From Roseateles koreensis (GTDB lineage Bacteria; Pseudomonadota; Gammaproteobacteria; Burkholderiales; Burkholderiaceae_C), in the NCBI RefSeq assembly GCF_028595305.1, contig NZ_JAQQXS010000015.1, positions 1-64,000 of the forward strand: a stretch of 64,000 nucleotides of DNA, written 5' to 3'. The notes below the pieces were generated by a model. It was not told the DNA's origin, ran no database searches, and was given only the letters and a program-made list of their open reading frames with translations. The translations under genes were made by a program, and so were the position numbers. Positions 15,111 through 63,800 of this stretch are shown piece after piece. Each line of letters starts with the position of its first letter. The stretch's first letter is position 1.

Positions 15111-16229
15111 ATGCAGGCTCGTGACCGTTTGAATTTCTGGCTGGTGATCGTCGCCCTGAGTTGCGCCGGCTTTTTTTGCCAGCAAGCTTTTGCGCTGTCG
15201 GTCACCTTCATCAATCCAGGACGCTCGGACGAAGCGTATTGGGTCGCGGCAGGCCGGGCCGTGGTTGCTGCCGCTGACGACCTGGGCATCCACCACGAGC
15301 AATTTTTTGCCGAGCGGGACCACCTGCGCGTGCTGGAAATTGCCCGCAGCATCGCCGCCCGCCCCAAAGAGCAACGCCCCGACTATGTGATGCTCACCAA
15401 CGACAAGTTGACCTTGGTCGCGGCGGTTCATATCTTGTCGCCGGCCGGCATCAAGACTTTCGGCGCTTTCAGCGGGCTGCAGGACACGGAGCGCGCCGAG
15501 TTTGGCGGCCCTCGGACAGGCTTTCCGCTGCTGATCGGCACCCTGGAGCCGCGCAGCATTGATGCAGGTTACCTGACTGCCAGTTCCTTGATTGCGCAGG
15601 GCTTGCGCATGAACCTGCAAGGCCCTGACGGCAAGCTGCACCTCATCTCGGTGGCGGGCGACCGCTCAACACCCACCTCCCTGTACCGCAATCTGGGGCT
15701 GCGCCGGGCGCTGGCTGAGCACCCTGAAGTGGTGCTGGATCAGCAGGTGTTTGGGGATTGGCGGCGCGACAAGGCTGCAGAGCAAACCGCCTGGCTGCTG
15801 CGCCGACACCCCGACGCTCGGCTGATCTGGTCTGCCAGCGATCAAATGACATTTGGTGCGATGGACGCGCTCGAAAAGCAAGGCCTGCAGCCGGGCCGCG
15901 ATGTCTTGTTGTCAGGCATCAACACCTCCACCGAAGCCATGCAGGCCGTGATTAGCGGCCGCCTCGCCGCTCTGGCGGGCGGCCATTTCATGGCCGGCGC
16001 CTGGGCCATGGTTATGATTTACGACTACGAGCACGGTCATGATTTTGCGGACGAGGGGATTGAACTCAACAAGACCATGTTCACCTTGTTTGACAAGCCG
16101 GCAACGGCTGAGCGTTTTCTCAAGCGTTTTGGTACCGGAGCGATTCCGGTGGATTTCAAGCACGCCAGCAAGGTCTTGAATCCGGCGCGGAAATATTACG
16201 ACTTTGACTTCGATCGTCTGCTCAAATGA
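15111..16229 (+). CDS. Periplasmic sugar-binding-type protein paired with a diguanylate cyclase
   Basis: A 372-residue periplasmic binding protein of the type I (LacI/RbsB-like) fold. A signal peptide covers about residues 1-29 (cleavage near FALS). The mature part opens with VTFINPGRSDEAYW and contains LIWSASDQMTFGAMDALEKQ, a typical second-lobe region for these proteins. No ABC permease or ATPase genes are nearby. Instead its stop codon overlaps the start of a membrane diguanylate cyclase (ATGA). I infer that it senses a small ligand and signals through that partner, as LuxP does with LuxQ, rather than feeding a transporter. The ligand is unknown. Confidence 0.8.
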   Translation: MQARDRLNFWLVIVALSCAGFFCQQAFALSVTFINPGRSDEAYWVAAGRAVVAAADDLGIHHEQFFAERDHLRVLEIARSIAARPKEQRPDYVMLTNDKLTLVAAVHILSPAGIKTFGAFSGLQDTERAEFGGPRTGFPLLIGTLEPRSIDAGYLTASSLIAQGLRMNLQGPDGKLHLISVAGDRSTPTSLYRNLGLRRALAEHPEVVLDQQVFGDWRRDKAAEQTAWLLRRHPDARLIWSASDQMTFGAMDALEKQGLQPGRDVLLSGINTSTEAMQAVISGRLAALAGGHFMAGAWAMVMIYDYEHGHDFADEGIELNKTMFTLFDKPATAERFLKRFGTGAIPVDFKHASKVLNPARKYYDFDFDRLLK

Positions 16230-18124
16230 TTCCGCCCTTGGCTGATGACGCTCGCTCTGGCAATGCCTCGCCCATTGAGGCTGGGCTTGTGTCCATGCCG
16301 GATGAGCGCCCCATGCGCTCACTGGCGGAAAGGCTGACACGCCGTATTGCCTGGCTGTGTGTCATGGCCACGGCCCTTGTGGGCCTCTTTCGGTTCGCGC
16401 AGATCTACTACTCAGAGCGTGCCAGTTTCGACAACGCCGTCGCCCAGGTCAGCCAGACGCATCTGCCACTGCTGTCCAGCAGTCTCTGGGACATTGAGCC
16501 GACTGCCGTTCAGCATTTGCTGCAAGAAATCGTCAAGGCACCCCAGATTCAAACCGCACGCCTACAAGCCAGCACCGGCCAATACTTTGAAGCCGCTGAC
16601 CCGCCACTGCTTGAAAAGCGCCCGCCTCCCGGAGGCGGGCTGATGCCGCAAGGGGATGTCAATTTCCAAATCCCCGGACCGGTCGGCAAGCACCGCATCC
16701 TGGGCCAATTGAGCCTGGATTTCAATCACGGATATTTGAAGCGGCAACTGATCTCAAGCGGCCTGCGGGTTCTTCTTGTCGGTGGCCTGCTGACTTTGGT
16801 TTTCAGCGGACTCACACTGCGCATCTTGCGCCGCGAATTGCGCCAACCCTTGCATGACCTGGCACGATTTGCTGCCGCCCTGGCGCCAGGCAAACGCCCG
16901 CCGCCCTTGGTGCTCAACCGCCCCGAGCAAAGCCATCGCGATGAACTCGATGTCGTGGTCGACGGATTCAAGACCTTGCGCGATGACATCGAGTTGTATG
17001 TCAAGGAGCGGGAACGACGTGCTGAACAGCTGGAGTTGGCCGTCGCGAGGCGTACGGCAACACTGCATGAAGTAACACGTTACCTGGAGAGCATCTCACG
17101 GCGCTCCAGCCGCTGCCTGAATCTGGCCGTGGACGAGTATCCCGACATGATTCGAGCTACGCTGCGAGATATATCGAGCTTCACAGGACATTGCAGCCTG
17201 GCCATTGCTGAGCAGGCCGCCGAGGGTGAGCCACTGATTTGCCGCTTTGTATGGATCGCCCCGCACGACCGGATCGCCGGGATGGCTGTCGACCAAGCGC
17301 TTTTGCCTGACTTGATCGGCCCGCTGCAACGCGGCTGGTCAGTTGTTCGCTACAAGCGCCTGGCTGATGCTGAACCTGCTCGCGCACAAGCCATGCAGCG
17401 GCATGGCATTCAAGCCCTGGTGAGTTGCGCGCTGCAAGGCAACAACGGCCGAACGCAAGTGCTGATGGGGGCGTCTTCTCGTCCTGAGCAGTGGACCTTT
17501 CGCGATGATCGCATGGCCAAAATGGCGGCCGAAATGCTGTTCAACATCATGCGCCACTGGCAAGACCAATTGGCGCTGCGCCGACTTCACCAAGAACTGG
17601 AGCAGCGCTCCAATACCGACTCGCTCACCGGGCTGGCCAACCGCCGCTGGTTTGACGAGCTCAAACTGGAGGAAACCCGCCGGGCACTGCGCAGCGGCAG
17701 CCCTTTGGCTTTGGTGGCCGTGGACGTGGACTATTTCAAAGGCTACAACGACAACTACGGCCATGCGCAGGGCGACCAATGCCTGGTCGCGGTGAGTCGC
17801 ATGATTCAGCAAACCTTCAACCGGGCCGGAGAAATGCCAGCACGCGTGGGCGGCGAAGAATTCACTGTGCTGCTGCCCGAGCACGATCTGCAGCAAGCGC
17901 TGAGCCAGGCCGAGCGGCTGCGCCAATGTGTGATCGACCTCGCCATCCCGCATCAAGGCTCGCCCTTGCAGCGCGTCAGCGTCAGTTGCGGCGTAGCCTG
18001 CATCCTGCCCGACCACATTCAATCCGGTGCCAGCCCAGATCAGATCATTGCCGACGCGCTGGAAGCCGCAGACTTGGCACTGTATCGCGCCAAAAAGAGC
18101 GGCAGGAACCAAGTCTCAAGCTGA
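16226..18124 (+). CDS. Membrane-bound diguanylate cyclase (GGDEF)
   Basis: A 632-residue inner-membrane enzyme expected to make cyclic di-GMP from two GTP. Membrane helices are near residues 42-62 and 174-196, enclosing a periplasmic sensor of about 110 residues. A HAMP-like linker, a coiled coil (about 255-290) and a region of about 160 residues that looks GAF-like follow. The GGDEF domain begins at DSLTGLANRRWFDE (about 465) and has an intact active-site loop, GGEEF, at 542-546. The product-inhibition I-site, normally RxxD five residues upstream, reads RAGE here and is probably weak or lost. The start overlaps the binding-protein stop, so the two are coupled. Confidence 0.9.
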   Translation: MIPPLADDARSGNASPIEAGLVSMPDERPMRSLAERLTRRIAWLCVMATALVGLFRFAQIYYSERASFDNAVAQVSQTHLPLLSSSLWDIEPTAVQHLLQEIVKAPQIQTARLQASTGQYFEAADPPLLEKRPPPGGGLMPQGDVNFQIPGPVGKHRILGQLSLDFNHGYLKRQLISSGLRVLLVGGLLTLVFSGLTLRILRRELRQPLHDLARFAAALAPGKRPPPLVLNRPEQSHRDELDVVVDGFKTLRDDIELYVKERERRAEQLELAVARRTATLHEVTRYLESISRRSSRCLNLAVDEYPDMIRATLRDISSFTGHCSLAIAEQAAEGEPLICRFVWIAPHDRIAGMAVDQALLPDLIGPLQRGWSVVRYKRLADAEPARAQAMQRHGIQALVSCALQGNNGRTQVLMGASSRPEQWTFRDDRMAKMAAEMLFNIMRHWQDQLALRRLHQELEQRSNTDSLTGLANRRWFDELKLEETRRALRSGSPLALVAVDVDYFKGYNDNYGHAQGDQCLVAVSRMIQQTFNRAGEMPARVGGEEFTVLLPEHDLQQALSQAERLRQCVIDLAIPHQGSPLQRVSVSCGVACILPDHIQSGASPDQIIADALEAADLALYRAKKSGRNQVSS

Positions 18125-18159
18125 GCAATGGCATGGGTTTGCCATCGCAAACCCCATTG

Positions 18160-18178
18160 AAAAAGCACCCGAAGGTGC
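18160..18178 (-). terminator. Rho-independent terminator of the PEP-CTERM gene
   Basis: Read on the minus strand, GCACC-TTCG-GGTGC (18178-18165) is closed by the very stable C(UUCG)G tetraloop and followed by TTTTT (18164-18160). It lies 50 bases past the stop of the PEP-CTERM gene. Confidence 0.75.
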
Positions 18179-18228
18179 CTCCATGGCATGGCACTGGGTC
18201 CATGCATGCGTGAAACGCTCAGTCGCGC

Positions 18229-18852
18229 TCAACGCTGCGTGTCAGCGCCCCGCTTGCGCTGAAGCGAGATCAGGCCCATGCCCAGCAGCCCGATGCCAAA
18301 CAGTGCGAAGGTTTGTGGCTCCGGAACGGCCGTCACGCTGACGGCGTCCAGTGAGGTGCCGAGCCCATCGCTGGTTCCTTGCCCCACGAAGGACAGGAGT
18401 GTCGAGGTGCCGGTGGCCTTAAAATTCACCGTGTAGTGGCTCCAGACATTGTCACCCGTGTTGTTGTAGGCCAATGCGGGTGCCGAACCGGAAAGGGTGC
18501 CGAAGGTCCAGCCCAAGCCATTGCTGTCCACGGGAACGCCGGTGCGGTTGGAGTACGCAAAACTCAGTTGATACCACTGTCCCGCCGTGGTGCTCAATTG
18601 CTGGCTGATTGAACTATTAGCAACGACATCCAACTCAATAAAATTGCTACCGTCATAAGCCTTGCCTACCGTATTGTTACGGATCTCAATGCCCGGCGTA
18701 CCCACGGTCCAGCCTGACAGGGTGTTTGTGATCAAAGGAGGGCCGCCGGCAGTCAGTACATTGGCTTCAAAGCTGCCGTTTTGCACCAAGTTGGTTGCGG
18801 CCTGGCTCAGCAACGGGAGAGCGATCAGGGAAAGTGCGAGAAATTTCTTCAT
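18229..18852 (-). CDS. PEP-CTERM sorting-domain protein
   Basis: A 207-residue exported protein. The signal peptide is MKKFLALSLIALPLLSQA, and the mature part starts NLVQNGSFEAN, a beginning seen in jelly-roll, DUF642-like carbohydrate-associated proteins. The C-terminus is a full exosortase sorting signal: the motif VPEPQT at about 175, a hydrophobic stretch (FALFGIGLLGMGLISL) and a basic end (QRKR). It should be processed by an exosortase such as the XrtB encoded at the far end of this window, and released or anchored outside the cell with the exopolysaccharide. It stands alone, about 10 kb from the polysaccharide locus, with its own terminator. Confidence 0.9.
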   Translation of the reverse strand: MKKFLALSLIALPLLSQAATNLVQNGSFEANVLTAGGPPLITNTLSGWTVGTPGIEIRNNTVGKAYDGSNFIELDVVANSSISQQLSTTAGQWYQLSFAYSNRTGVPVDSNGLGWTFGTLSGSAPALAYNNTGDNVWSHYTVNFKATGTSTLLSFVGQGTSDGLGTSLDAVSVTAVPEPQTFALFGIGLLGMGLISLQRKRGADTQR

Positions 18853-59894: not shown

Positions 59895-60578
59895 TCAATG
59901 CAAACCGATCAACCGGCTGCGCTTTTCCGCAGGCATTGCGTCCAACAATTCTTTAAGAAAGCCACTTTGCATTGCGAATGCTTCGCTATTATTGGCATCA
60001 ATTGATGACACTCTGACGAGGACACCATCTGGAATTTTTCCTTGCATGCCATAGCGAATGGCTACCCAACGGTGCGGGTAGCCAAATTCGGTCATTTCAT
60101 CACCGACCATCACCCAATAGGTAATTGGTTCATTGCGTGGCCCCATCGTGGCAACCATATGCTTGACGTTCAAGGCACGCCCGTCAACCGGAAGCACCGC
60201 GTCCTCTACGGCGGAGGTCAGCTTAAAGCCTTGCGCCGGGTAGCAGATTTCCGGCCGATGGGAGAGCATGCCCTTGTGTTGATTTCGCCCATACGCAAGC
60301 GACAGCATCATCCGCACACCGGCTGCATTCTTGAACGTCATGGCCAGGGTTTCATCGTAGGTCGCATCAATGACTTTTTGAAGATCCGGACTGGGCGGAA
60401 TAGGTACCACCGAATCATCCACCCGCCAGTCCCCAAATTGATTGGGAACGATCGCCGCCAGCTTTTCGCGGGCATGAACATCCGCCAGATAGGTTCGCGG
60501 GGTGATAGCCAAAGAAAGAAAGTAGGCGCCTACCATCAGCGCCGACAAAATCGACGCTTTAAACAAGTTACTTGCCAT
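59895..60578 (-). CDS. epsI: Exosortase B-associated protein EpsI
   Basis: A 227-residue protein with one N-terminal membrane helix (about residues 8-26) and a periplasmic EpsI domain. SHRPEICYPAQGFKL contains the Cys and His conserved in the family, followed by YWVMVGDEMT. EpsI accompanies exosortase in polysaccharide loci and its exact biochemical role is unproven. The ATG at 60578 is preferred (GAGGGC upstream). It overlaps the exosortase gene by 11 bases, so the two are coupled. Confidence 0.9.
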   Translation of the reverse strand: MASNLFKASILSALMVGAYFLSLAITPRTYLADVHAREKLAAIVPNQFGDWRVDDSVVPIPPSPDLQKVIDATYDETLAMTFKNAAGVRMMLSLAYGRNQHKGMLSHRPEICYPAQGFKLTSAVEDAVLPVDGRALNVKHMVATMGPRNEPITYWVMVGDEMTEFGYPHRWVAIRYGMQGKIPDGVLVRVSSIDANNSEAFAMQSGFLKELLDAMPAEKRSRLIGLH

Positions 60579-61470
60579 GCCGATTGCCCTCGAAAAAGAA
60601 CCCAAGGACTTTATCAACCGCCAAAATCAAAACCAGTGCCACCAGGAATAAAACCATTCCAGCAAAGCCATGCACAAACCCTTGCCCGGCCTCATCACCA
60701 AAGTGATAAGTCACCAATACAAGAATCATGACTCGGATCACATTTGCAGTGAACGAAATTGGAATGATCAAACAGGCCAAAGTAATGTTGCGCGCAACCC
60801 GCGTGTAGCGCATCAGGTTCATGTATAGCAGGCCCAGAGCTTCCAAGGTGAACATTGAATTCAACCCCGCACACGCATCAGCCACCAATAGCTGATAAGG
60901 GCCAACCGTCAAAATTACGCCTGCACGGCCTACCGGATATCCAAGGCGGTACAACAAATCAGACGCAACCACCGAGACAGCGGCCTTCAAAGGAGAAGTC
61001 ACCATCGACACCAGATCTGCCGGCCACGGGATCATGAAGATCAGAAAGAACAATGGAAACCAAGCCAGCCGCCACCCTGCTTTTCCGTAAAAAAACAGGA
61101 GCAAGGCACTCAGCATCAATATTTGGGAGCCAATCTCGAAGGTCCAGATGACCTGTGAACGACCTATCGCATAAGCCAATATGCCGGCCAGCATCAAGAT
61201 ACTCGGCATAACCGTCATCGGTGTCGGGACCAGCCTCGCAAACTCGGCTCGCTTGCTGTACAAAAGCCAGGCAACGACGGCAAGAATAATAGGACCATGG
61301 CCCTGCTCGTCGCTGGCCCATACCGTTTGGGAAAGACCATAGTAGCTGGGCACGTACATGACCAACCACCCGAACACAATCAGAACAACGGCAAGTAGAC
61401 CTCGATGCTGCAATGAGGCCAGCCCTTTATATTCATTAGAAACGGCTGCAGGCTGGGGGGATCCACTCAC
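60568..61470 (-). CDS. xrtB: Exosortase B
   Basis: A 300-residue membrane peptidase with about eight helices, the processing enzyme for PEP-CTERM proteins. The catalytic triad proposed for exosortases is intact: Cys200 in VADACAGLNSM, Arg246 in TANVIRVMIL and His267 in GQGFVHGFAG. It should cleave after the PEP motif of proteins such as the one at 18229-18852 and couple their sorting to exopolysaccharide. It lies between epsG and epsI, the standard order of XrtB clusters. Confidence 0.94.
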   Translation of the reverse strand: MSGSPQPAAVSNEYKGLASLQHRGLLAVVLIVFGWLVMYVPSYYGLSQTVWASDEQGHGPIILAVVAWLLYSKRAEFARLVPTPMTVMPSILMLAGILAYAIGRSQVIWTFEIGSQILMLSALLLFFYGKAGWRLAWFPLFFLIFMIPWPADLVSMVTSPLKAAVSVVASDLLYRLGYPVGRAGVILTVGPYQLLVADACAGLNSMFTLEALGLLYMNLMRYTRVARNITLACLIIPISFTANVIRVMILVLVTYHFGDEAGQGFVHGFAGMVLFLVALVLILAVDKVLGFFFEGNRHGK

Positions 61471-61482
61471 AGAAAAGCCCTC

Positions 61483-62373
61483 TTAGAACTCGTTGACGAC
61501 CACGCCCACGAGCTTTGCCGGGCTTTGGCTGAACATCGCCACCAAGTCCTGCAACGCATCGACACGGGACGCATCCTTTCGTGCGATGACCAGCGCAGCG
61601 CCGCACTTTGCAGCAATCACTGCGGCGTCCGCACCATGAACAGCAGCCGGTGTATCAACAACGACGTGATCGAATTTACTCAACAGCTCACGCAGCATCA
61701 AACCGAACGCCGGGCGCTCCACCAATTCGATCGGATTCGGTGGTGTCACGCCGACAGGCAGGACAAACAGGCTGGGAATATTGGGAATTTGTTGAATAAC
61801 ATTGGAGCCACCCCGCCCAGACAAGATGGTGGACAAACCGTCCCGATTGTCTAATTTGAAAATTTCATGCTGACGGGGGTTGCGCATATCGGCATCAACC
61901 AACAGAGTACGTCCACCCAACTGCGCCAGCGTGACCGCCAAATTGGCGCAGAAATAGCTTTTCCCGTCTTGGGTATCCGGGCTGATCACGGCCAAGGCAC
62001 GACGCGGCTCACCCTCGCCATACATTCTCATGATCAGTTGGCTGCGCGTTGCGCGGAAGGCCTCGGCTTGATCGGAGAAGGGCTGAGTCAGTGCAACCAG
62101 CTCAGGGCTGAGTTGTTTTTTCTCATCCGGCGAATAAGGGTAATGAAACTGCTGCGCCAGGGCGAAAAGTACATCGTCCGAACTCGCATACCCGAGCTCG
62201 ACAGCAGCTTCACCAAACCTCAGCCCGGAGCTACGTTGGTGGTCGAGAATTTTTTCGACTTGTTCAGCCGACAGATTTCTCGTTTGGCTGATTAGCGCAC
62301 CAATCGAATTCTCAGGCAGTCGCGCCTCATCCACTTGAATATTGTCCATACTCGTTTCGTTAGGCATTTTCAT
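61483..62373 (-). CDS. epsG: Chain-length-determinant tyrosine kinase-type protein EpsG with an MshEN-like N-terminus
   Basis: A 296-residue cytoplasmic P-loop protein, the separate kinase half of the Wzc-type chain-length system (EpsF is the membrane half). Walker A is TQDGKS (Gly137-Lys138-Ser139), Walker A' LLVDADMRNP and Walker B HVVVDTPA. The C-terminus ends at VGVVVNEF without the usual Tyr cluster. Residues 23-75 form two 24-residue repeats separated by five residues: IGALISQTRN...LDHQ (from Ser23) and RFGEAAVELGYASS...LAQQ. They match the spacing of the MshEN c-di-GMP-binding domain. The start (62373) overlaps the epsF stop, and a GTG at 62376 is the alternative. Confidence 0.9.
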   Translation of the reverse strand: MKMPNETSMDNIQVDEARLPENSIGALISQTRNLSAEQVEKILDHQRSSGLRFGEAAVELGYASSDDVLFALAQQFHYPYSPDEKKQLSPELVALTQPFSDQAEAFRATRSQLIMRMYGEGEPRRALAVISPDTQDGKSYFCANLAVTLAQLGGRTLLVDADMRNPRQHEIFKLDNRDGLSTILSGRGGSNVIQQIPNIPSLFVLPVGVTPPNPIELVERPAFGLMLRELLSKFDHVVVDTPAAVHGADAAVIAAKCGAALVIARKDASRVDALQDLVAMFSQSPAKLVGVVVNEF

Positions 62374-63800
62374 CACGAGCTCTTGGCGGCGCTGGGTGCG
62401 TTACCCAAAATCCGCTTTTGCACACGGCCCAATTTTTGCGCCCGGATCTTGCTGCGACCGCTTGGATTGGGCATGAGGCCAATAATCGGCAGCCCAATGG
62501 CACTGATCAAATCATCAGAGGTGCGAACACGGCGATCGAACAACTCCACGGTAACTGCAACCGCCAGCGCCAGAATGACCCCTGCAAACACTCCAATCAA
62601 AATATTGACCCAAGTCCGCGGCGTGGCATGCACCAGGGGTGGCGTTGCCACCGTCAAGACATTGACGTTGCTGGTTGTCGTCTGGCTTTCCAGGCTCGTT
62701 TGATTCAAACGCGCCTGCACGGCGTCATAGGCACGTTGCGCATTCTCGACATCGCGCTGCAACACAGCACCTTCATCCCGGGTTGCCTTCAAATGCAGTA
62801 ACTTGGCACGCTGGGCGTCCAAGGAGGAGCGAATTTCAGCTTCGCGTTGCTTGTTGATCGTGTTTGAAACCCCTATACCGCCAGTGACACGCTTGATTTC
62901 AGCATCGACCTTGACGCGCAATTCAGCGATATTTTCCTTGGCTTCTTGAACTTGGGGATGGCTGTCACCGTAACGAGCATTCAATTCCTTGAGGCGCACT
63001 TCAGCCCGACTGAGGTCAGATTTGAGGCCACTGATCAACGGGTTATTCAATACCTCCTGCATGCGGTCGGCAGAAACACTATTAGCTTGGGTTTGCCGGC
63101 TGGTTGATTCAGCCGAAAGCGCCTGCATGCCAACCAATTGGCTTGAGAGCTCAACCAGTCGATTGTTCTCGACGTCGAGGCGCTCTTCACTGGCGATTAA
63201 GCCGTTGTCCTTTTGAAAGGCAGACAGCCGAGCTTGTGCCTTTTCGTAGGTTTCACGCGCTTCTTTTGCTCGATTGTCAAAAAATGCAGAGTATTGGCGA
63301 GCCGGATCGACCCTCAATTCCAGCGTGGTTTCGATATAGGATTGAACAAACGCGTTCGCCAATGCAGCGGCAAAACGTGGATCTGGCGCACGGTAAGAAA
63401 TCTCGATAACGCTTGATTCCTTCGAAGGCTTCACTTCCATGCTTTTCTGAAAACTTTCACTCAGCCACGATTCAACGCTGCCTTGGCCGTTGGTCGCTTG
63501 TTTCCATTGCTCCCGAATTTGCGGGTTTTCAGCGAGTTTTAAATTTTTGACCACGCGCATGGCAACCCGATCACTCTTGATCACGTCAACCTGCGTCGCC
63601 ATCACACCCGGCGAAGACATCCCGGAATAAGCCAAGGAAACCGGATCAGGCTTCGCATCCACGACCACCGATGCGGTTGCCATGTACATCTTGGTGGCCA
63701 ACAATGTGCCCACCACCGCGATCAAGAAAACGGTCAGGAATGTCGCCAGCGCAATGCGCCACCGAGCCCTGAAAATTGAAAGAAGTTGCGCAATCGTCAT
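62373..63800 (-). CDS. epsF: Chain length determinant protein EpsF
   Basis: A 475-residue Wzz-type inner-membrane protein that sets polymer length and links synthesis to export. Membrane helices lie near residues 15-37 and 405-425. The long periplasmic region between them is a coiled coil (about 165-385; for example RAEVRLKELNARYGDSHPQ). The motif before the second helix, ATPPLVHATPRTWVNILIGV, holds the Pro-rich segment typical of the family. It carries no kinase domain. That domain is EpsG, whose start overlaps this stop. Confidence 0.92.
   Translation of the reverse strand: MTIAQLLSIFRARWRIALATFLTVFLIAVVGTLLATKMYMATASVVVDAKPDPVSLAYSGMSSPGVMATQVDVIKSDRVAMRVVKNLKLAENPQIREQWKQATNGQGSVESWLSESFQKSMEVKPSKESSVIEISYRAPDPRFAAALANAFVQSYIETTLELRVDPARQYSAFFDNRAKEARETYEKAQARLSAFQKDNGLIASEERLDVENNRLVELSSQLVGMQALSAESTSRQTQANSVSADRMQEVLNNPLISGLKSDLSRAEVRLKELNARYGDSHPQVQEAKENIAELRVKVDAEIKRVTGGIGVSNTINKQREAEIRSSLDAQRAKLLHLKATRDEGAVLQRDVENAQRAYDAVQARLNQTSLESQTTTSNVNVLTVATPPLVHATPRTWVNILIGVFAGVILALAVAVTVELFDRRVRTSDDLISAIGLPIIGLMPNPSGRSKIRAQKLGRVQKRILGNAPSAAKSS

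Follow-up and report, generated by a model that had tools for sequence, protein, structure and literature searches.

We found that EpsG, encoded in the window (the whole stretch of DNA that was analysed, 64,000 nucleotides), is a BY-kinase-type protein with a true MshEN domain at its N-terminus and, as throughout its family, without a C-terminal tyrosine cluster. Comparison of the sequences favours, on balance, a mechanism in which the MshEN domain would bind c-di-GMP and signal to the helix carrying the ExxRxxR motif, thereby gating a ring of EpsG beneath its membrane partner EpsF and setting the length or the export of the polymer.

The epsG locus

The genes of the locus within the window are as follows.

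59895..60617, minus strand: epsI, type B (NF045609, 264.4 bits, cut-off 220)
60568..61470, minus strand: xrtB, exosortase B (TIGR03113, 355.8 bits, cut-off 275)
61483..62376, minus strand: epsG, 297 aa if read from GTG and 296 from the likely ATG at 62373, with an N-terminal MshEN module ahead of a BY-kinase-type P-loop domain
62373..63800, minus strand: epsF, Wzz-type membrane copolymerase (TIGR03017, 514 bits, cut-off 422.75)

Read along the minus strand, epsF is followed directly by epsG and then by xrtB and epsI. The likely start of epsG, the ATG at 62373, is the codon next after the GTG and overlaps the stop of epsF; residues are numbered here on the 297-aa protein, i.e. one higher than in the first-pass annotation. 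The gene epsD lies on the same contig beyond the end of the window. With XrtB, EpsI-B, EpsF and EpsD (243 bits) scoring over the cut-offs of their models, and EpsL (167.3 bits) under its own cut-off of 275, the locus is of the XrtB-type exopolysaccharide kind. EpsG itself scored 286.1 bits with TIGR03029, under the curated cut-off of 313.8; the match spans the whole model (3-274 of 274), the neighbouring genes fit EpsG, and this cut-off was exceeded in only 4 of the 59 nearer-relative genomes and 8 of the 370 genomes of the class. With TIGR01007, EpsG scored 130.1 bits (cut-off 108.05).

EpsF is the likely partner of EpsG. Among the best 80 of at least 587 named loci, epsF was near epsG in all 80, xrtB was detected near it in 58 (some of the loci lying on short contigs) and epsI type B in 54.

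The MshEN module of EpsG

The module consists of three segments.

62236..62307, minus strand: MshEN repeat 1, SIGALISQTRNLSAEQVEKILDHQ, residues 24-47
62221..62235, minus strand: five-residue spacer RSSGL, residues 48-52
62149..62220, minus strand: MshEN repeat 2, RFGEAAVELGYASSDDVLFALAQQ, residues 53-76

The first-pass annotation had placed two 24-residue repeats joined by RSSGL at 62149-62307, and both these coordinates and the residue pattern that it gave proved exact: both repeats carry Gly3 and Gln24, repeat 2 also has Arg1 and Gly10, and repeat 1 has Ser1 and Arg10 instead. Of the two, only repeat 2 satisfies the relaxed motif with which Wang et al. 2016 (PMC5013675) searched; repeat 1 departs from it, as judged by eye, at positions 1, 7, 10 and 11. 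Under a 22-position motif rule, which was written after the EpsG sequence had been seen and at most positions allows more residues than the published motif, so that the independent profile tests weigh more than its score, the EpsG segment reached 18; none of 20,000 whole-protein shuffles reached 18 anywhere (best 16), and every other 53-mer in the six frames of the window scored 13 or less.

The profile search that had been suggested for residues 1-90 gave a match to NF053729 (NCBIfam, MshE-related c-di-GMP motif) with an E-value of 4.7e-10 and 39.1 bits (cut-off 38), covering model positions 2-53 of 53; the same model scored 39.6 bits in a six-frame search and 36.1 bits, below the cut-off, with the whole of EpsG. 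At E<=0.001, it matched all 125 N-terminal EpsG pieces and 41 of 42 full-length orthologues (the sets are described below). Single-sequence phmmer searches of the PDB sequences returned PilF (E 2.3e-5) and MshE 5HTL (E 2.4e-4), while a profile built from the 125 N-terminal pieces returned MshE 5HTL at E 1.4e-9 and PilF 6F8L at E 3.4e-17. What had been called an MshEN-like module is, by the NF053729 and orthologue-profile matches, an MshEN domain, and the repeats are not a product of chance.

AlphaFold2 modelled EpsG with a mean pLDDT of 89.3 and placed the helices of the module at residues 25-33, 37-50, 54-60 and 66-76. Because a Foldseek search with the full-length model gave only kinases among the 50 matches listed, the N-terminal 99 residues were folded alone (mean pLDDT 82.6). 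Foldseek with this model ranked MshE in complex with c-di-GMP first, and the top seven matches were all MshE or PilF domains, though the best E-value was 0.067 and none reached 0.001. No Pfam family matched residues 1-90 of EpsG. The Pfam family matched most often by the 125 pieces was the fumarase C-terminal domain (20 pieces, best E 7.8e-4), which was taken as a helical-hairpin resemblance since fumarases were also among the weak Foldseek matches.

EpsG is like Vibrio cholerae MshE (PDB 5HTL) and the MshEN domains of PilB and PilF in the 24+5+24 layout, in Gly3 and Gln24 of both repeats, in the four short helices, and in the profile and fold matches. It differs from them in the absence of Arg1 and Gly10 from repeat 1, in the change of Leu2 to Phe in repeat 2, and in its output domain, which is of the BY-kinase type rather than a secretion ATPase.

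Conservation of the module in the EpsG family

A set of 126 EpsG-type proteins was assembled from the window (one protein), the 59 relatives (25), the 370 genomes of the class (20) and the best 80 of at least 587 named matches, a choice that favours full-length matches; two exact duplicates, which came in through different collections, were kept in the counts of 126. Four loci (L032-L035) and one locus-less match, all covering the kinase part only, were excluded from the search of the 59 relatives. The full-length alignment of 42 proteins comprises the 46 EpsG obtained before the named 80 were added, less L030, L031, L053 and L055. EpsG-type proteins are not rare in their lineage, a match at E<=1e-55 being present in 21 of the 370 genomes of the class and one at E<=1e-30 in 27 of the 59 nearer relatives, five of these covering the kinase part only.

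Conservation among orthologues, named by the first-pass annotation as a check on its reading, was borne out. The module is present in 125 of the 126 proteins, with the same ungapped 53-residue spacing in all 125 and 123 distinct modules; the sole protein lacking it, L053, which is counted within the 126, may be truncated or have a misread frame. In the 123 distinct modules, Gly3 is found without exception in both repeats, and Gln24 in 113 copies of repeat 1 and all 123 of repeat 2. Arg1 is present in 99 copies of repeat 2 (Lys in 11) and in only 9 of repeat 1 (Ser in 72), and Gly10 in 98 and 63 copies, respectively; Methyloversatilis and Herbaspirillum loci are examples with Gly10 in repeat 1. 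At position 2 of repeat 2, 121 modules have Phe and two have Tyr, and most modules have a polar residue at position 11 of repeat 1. When the 42 full-length proteins were aligned, 4 of the 13 invariant columns fell inside the module (Gly26, Phe54, Gly55 and Gln76); in the alignment of the 125 N-terminal pieces, the only invariant residues were both Gly3, Gln24 of repeat 2, a downstream Pro and the Glu of ExxRxxR. The module had been described as degenerate, and this holds insofar as repeat 1 lacks Arg1 and Gly10; in these alignments, however, the imperfect repeat 1 is a family-wide pattern of EpsG in which the ligand-contact positions stay conserved, with both Gly3 and the second Gln24 invariant, and NfrB of Escherichia coli likewise lacks Arg1 and Gly10 in repeat 1.

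Can a module with an imperfect repeat 1 bind c-di-GMP?

In MshE, the residues at positions Gly3 and Gln24 make polar contacts to c-di-GMP; a change of the turn glycine of MshEN weakens binding, and XpsE is a homologue that has lost binding after several key changes, including both Gly3 and the second Gln (Wang et al. 2016, PMC5013675, from the available portion). All three of these residues are kept in EpsG. Repeat 1 of NfrB from E. coli K-12 (L140), which reads PLGQILLENQVITEEQLDTALRNR in the genome record, has Pro1 and Gln10 and is without Gln24. According to the accessible text of PMC8669472, NfrB binds c-di-GMP, as stated there from an accompanying study, its Gly3 mutant G491L loses function, and most other substitutions at conserved motif positions were without effect in a phage test. 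Because most of these substitutions had no effect, motif conservation is an imperfect guide, and because NfrB, a reported binder, lacks both Arg1 and Gly10 in repeat 1, their absence from EpsG lowers but does not exclude its membership among the MshEN receptors. Like EpsG, NfrB, a c-di-GMP-activated glycosyltransferase, has MshEN with an imperfect repeat 1 in a polysaccharide machine; in the available sources it is likened to cellulose synthase, and its spacer has four residues, whereas EpsG belongs to a chain-length (copolymerase) system and has five.

These comparisons also bear on a rather unlikely reading, in which EpsG has kept the MshEN fold and lost c-di-GMP binding, the module now serving to dock a partner such as the cytoplasmic tail of EpsF. 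Such a loss would fit the missing Arg1 and Gly10 of repeat 1, the Phe or Tyr in place of Leu at position 2 of repeat 2 in all 123 distinct modules, the mostly polar position 11 of repeat 1, and the precedent of XpsE as a known non-binder (PMC5013675, in the part available). Docking, however, would have no need for exactly Gly3, Gly3 and Gln24 as the invariant residues; EpsG has lost none of the residues that XpsE lost, and NfrB is reported to bind despite the same losses in repeat 1 (PMC8669472, likewise in part).

Position 2 of repeat 2, aromatic in every EpsG module, corresponds to Leu39 of MshE, which stacks on guanine. Aromatic stacking by Phe or Tyr at this position could perhaps replace the missing Arg1 of repeat 1.

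The genome from which the window comes has 44 GGDEF matches, a few of which are fragments of a single gene, so that c-di-GMP is likely to be made in it. Weaker binding of cGAMP by MshEN has been reported (PMC5013675, available part), which would leave room for the module to sense another cyclic dinucleotide; with the 44 GGDEF matches pointing to c-di-GMP as the likely ligand, we regard this as highly improbable.

The kinase part of EpsG

By sequence and by fold matches to the kinase domains of CapAB and Wzc, the C-terminal part of EpsG is a BY-kinase domain. Two of its motifs are listed here.

62044..62064, minus strand: ExxRxxR motif EAFRATR, residues 105-111, about 30 residues after the module
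61957..61983, minus strand: Walker A SPDTQDGKS, residues 132-140, with the lysine kept in this copy

EpsG shares the kinase fold, Walker A, A' and B, and ExxRxxR with the Wzc and CapAB BY-kinases (PCP-2a/2b), and, as in CapAB, the membrane partner is split off, here as EpsF; it differs from both in lacking the C-terminal tyrosine cluster and in having the extra N-terminal MshEN. In one genome of the same class (L055), EpsF and EpsG are joined in a single open frame, in which the MshEN module follows the membrane part and precedes the kinase part, and a 108-residue C-terminal extension contains two scattered Tyr.

The ExxRxxR motif of BY-kinases functions in ring assembly. It is nearly invariant in the 126 EpsG (E in 126, the first R in 124 and the second in 125). 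The window protein has Walker A, A' and B all present. At the position of the Walker A lysine, 57 family members have K, 55 have R and 14 have one of C, A, S, T and V; without the duplicates, 55 of 124 have K. A quick tree of EpsG shows at least eight switches between K and another residue. Of the 14 copies with neither K nor R, 13 retain the module and L053 does not. Within the last 30 residues, 86 of the 126 EpsG, including the window protein, have no Tyr, 34 have one and 6 have two. A single terminal Tyr, not found in the window protein, ends 27 of the 126 and is possibly a lone phosphosite.

For comparison, we used kinases of the XrtA type, defined solely by a match to the family model TIGR03018 (XrtA-associated tyrosine autokinase), related kinases that this NCBI name assigns to exosortase-linked loci. 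Their 30 loci are the best-scoring ones, a biased sample that favours canonical kinases; counts of 29 leave out L145, and the MshEN count covers all 30. In this sample, the last 30 residues contain 3-7 Tyr in the 29 kinases (6 in Wzc), all 29 keep the Walker A lysine and have K at the last position of ExxRxxR, and MshEN was found in 0 of 30, EpsG being opposite in tail and module. This genome has one of each, EpsG and an XrtA-type kinase (L145, contig C3) with a GYGYGY tail, a GEGKS Walker A and no MshEN. EpsG and the XrtA-type kinases may be two old families whose difference stems from a single old event and, given this possibility and the biased sample, the difference is to be read as a contrast, not as a correlation, with no claim of statistical association. 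The second Asp of Walker A' is replaced by Asn in 21 of the 126 EpsG and is Asp in 29 of 29 XrtA-type kinases.

The term chain-length kinase, used in the first-pass annotation, is doubtful for the EpsG family, in which the tyrosine cluster is missing and 69 of the 126 have another residue in place of the Walker A lysine, and many members may be misnamed as 'tyrosine kinase EpsG'. Since its own Walker A lysine is retained, the window EpsG may yet have kinase activity towards other substrates. This leads to a further, quite unlikely reading, in which EpsG binds c-di-GMP yet remains an ordinary ATP-driven tyrosine kinase of other proteins, so that catalysis rather than ring state would be modulated. 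The retention of Walker A, A' and B in the window copy and the structure and sequence matches to the CapAB and Wzc kinase domains agree with it, but the lysine is absent from more than half of the family and has changed repeatedly on the tree, none of the 126 has a tyrosine cluster, and the module persists in nearly all copies with neither K nor R.

Two further ideas were rejected. One was that EpsG loci lack the matching phosphatase: a search with E. coli Wzb found none in the 80 EpsG loci, the window or the next 16 kb, but this search was without discrimination, recovering only 17 of 30 known members of PF01451 and likewise finding none in the XrtA-type kinase region of this genome. A link between loss of Gly10 in repeat 1 and retention of the Walker A lysine (raw counts, 53 with K and without Gly10, 47 with R and with Gly10) was dropped, as only four independent pairs were found on supported tree branches, and together they lend it no support.

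Proposed control of the copolymerase ring

In the Wzc-type cycle, an octameric ring is present at low tyrosine phosphorylation and comes apart at high phosphorylation, and this cycling is proposed to set chain length (PMC12220298, in the part available). Being without the tyrosine cluster, EpsG cannot run such a phospho-cycle through one. The second transmembrane helix of Wzc occupies the place at which EpsG has its MshEN module, before the ExxRxxR helix. We infer three steps for EpsG, namely binding of c-di-GMP, coupling of binding to ring state, and an effect on the polymer. Specifically, c-di-GMP bound by the MshEN module would act via a short linker on the ExxRxxR helix, on which ring formation of the BY-kinase-type domain under the membrane copolymerase, here EpsF, would depend; the EpsG ring would be opened or closed, and its state would determine polymer length or export in XrtB-type loci, with c-di-GMP as the input in place of tyrosine-cluster phosphorylation.

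More tentatively, EpsG proteins as a class could be BY-kinase derivatives gated by c-di-GMP, the copolymerase ring having come under the control of second-messenger binding in place of tyrosine autophosphorylation; selection would then keep the ring motif and the MshEN pocket, while the catalytic lysine would be lost or changed repeatedly. If so, c-di-GMP would have a direct input to Wzy-type length control, as it has through PilZ to synthase-type systems. A family with the module and without the tyrosine cluster makes the replacement of phospho-cycling by second-messenger gating directly testable. The PilZ domain of BcsA and the MshEN domain of EpsG are different receptor folds. In the BcsA cellulose synthase, c-di-GMP acts through PilZ directly on the polysaccharide machine (PMC12220298, available part), in a synthase-dependent pathway, unlike the EpsG system.

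The first-pass annotation knew of no description of such a control point for XrtB-type loci. This stands in that, in the open-access literature, we found no test of c-di-GMP on EpsG, that of Methylobacillus included, and no report of the missing EpsG tyrosine cluster among the matches listed. It does not stand for the module, since MshEN on EpsG is partly anticipated in print: TIGR03029, the NCBI EpsG model, spans the module positions, and an MshEN protein has been recorded from Methylobacillus, which we take to be EpsG, the name presumably coming from the methanolan locus of Methylobacillus sp. 12S. In the part of the main text available, Wang et al. 2016 (PMC5013675) describe this MshEN domain in a Methylobacillus exopolysaccharide-synthesis protein, citing the methanolan paper and not naming EpsG, and mention other MshEN fusions, including Ser/Thr kinases and CheA. 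The features newly noted here, and not found in print, are the absence of the tyrosine cluster, the Walker A lysine in 57 of the 126, the retained ExxRxxR and the contrast with XrtA-type kinases.

Other MshEN and GGDEF proteins of the genome

Further MshEN matches were observed in the same genome. On contig C23, an 846-aa secretion-type ATPase (L138, 2791-5331, minus strand) carries MshEN matches of 49.6 and 42.6 bits in tandem, and a second ATPase adjoining it has a match of 74.3 bits. On contig C16, a 236-aa protein (L139, 2278-2988, minus strand) has an N-terminal MshEN match of 67.5 bits followed, as judged by eye, by a hydrophobic signal-like segment and an exported-looking tail, which is odd for a cytoplasmic receptor. 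On the contig of the exopolysaccharide locus, at 15111-18852 of the window, a gene that by eye resembles those of periplasmic binding proteins and a GGDEF protein (16226-18124) lie next to a protein at 18229-18852 (minus strand), whose weak matches to several models of PEP-CTERM families all stay below the respective cut-offs.
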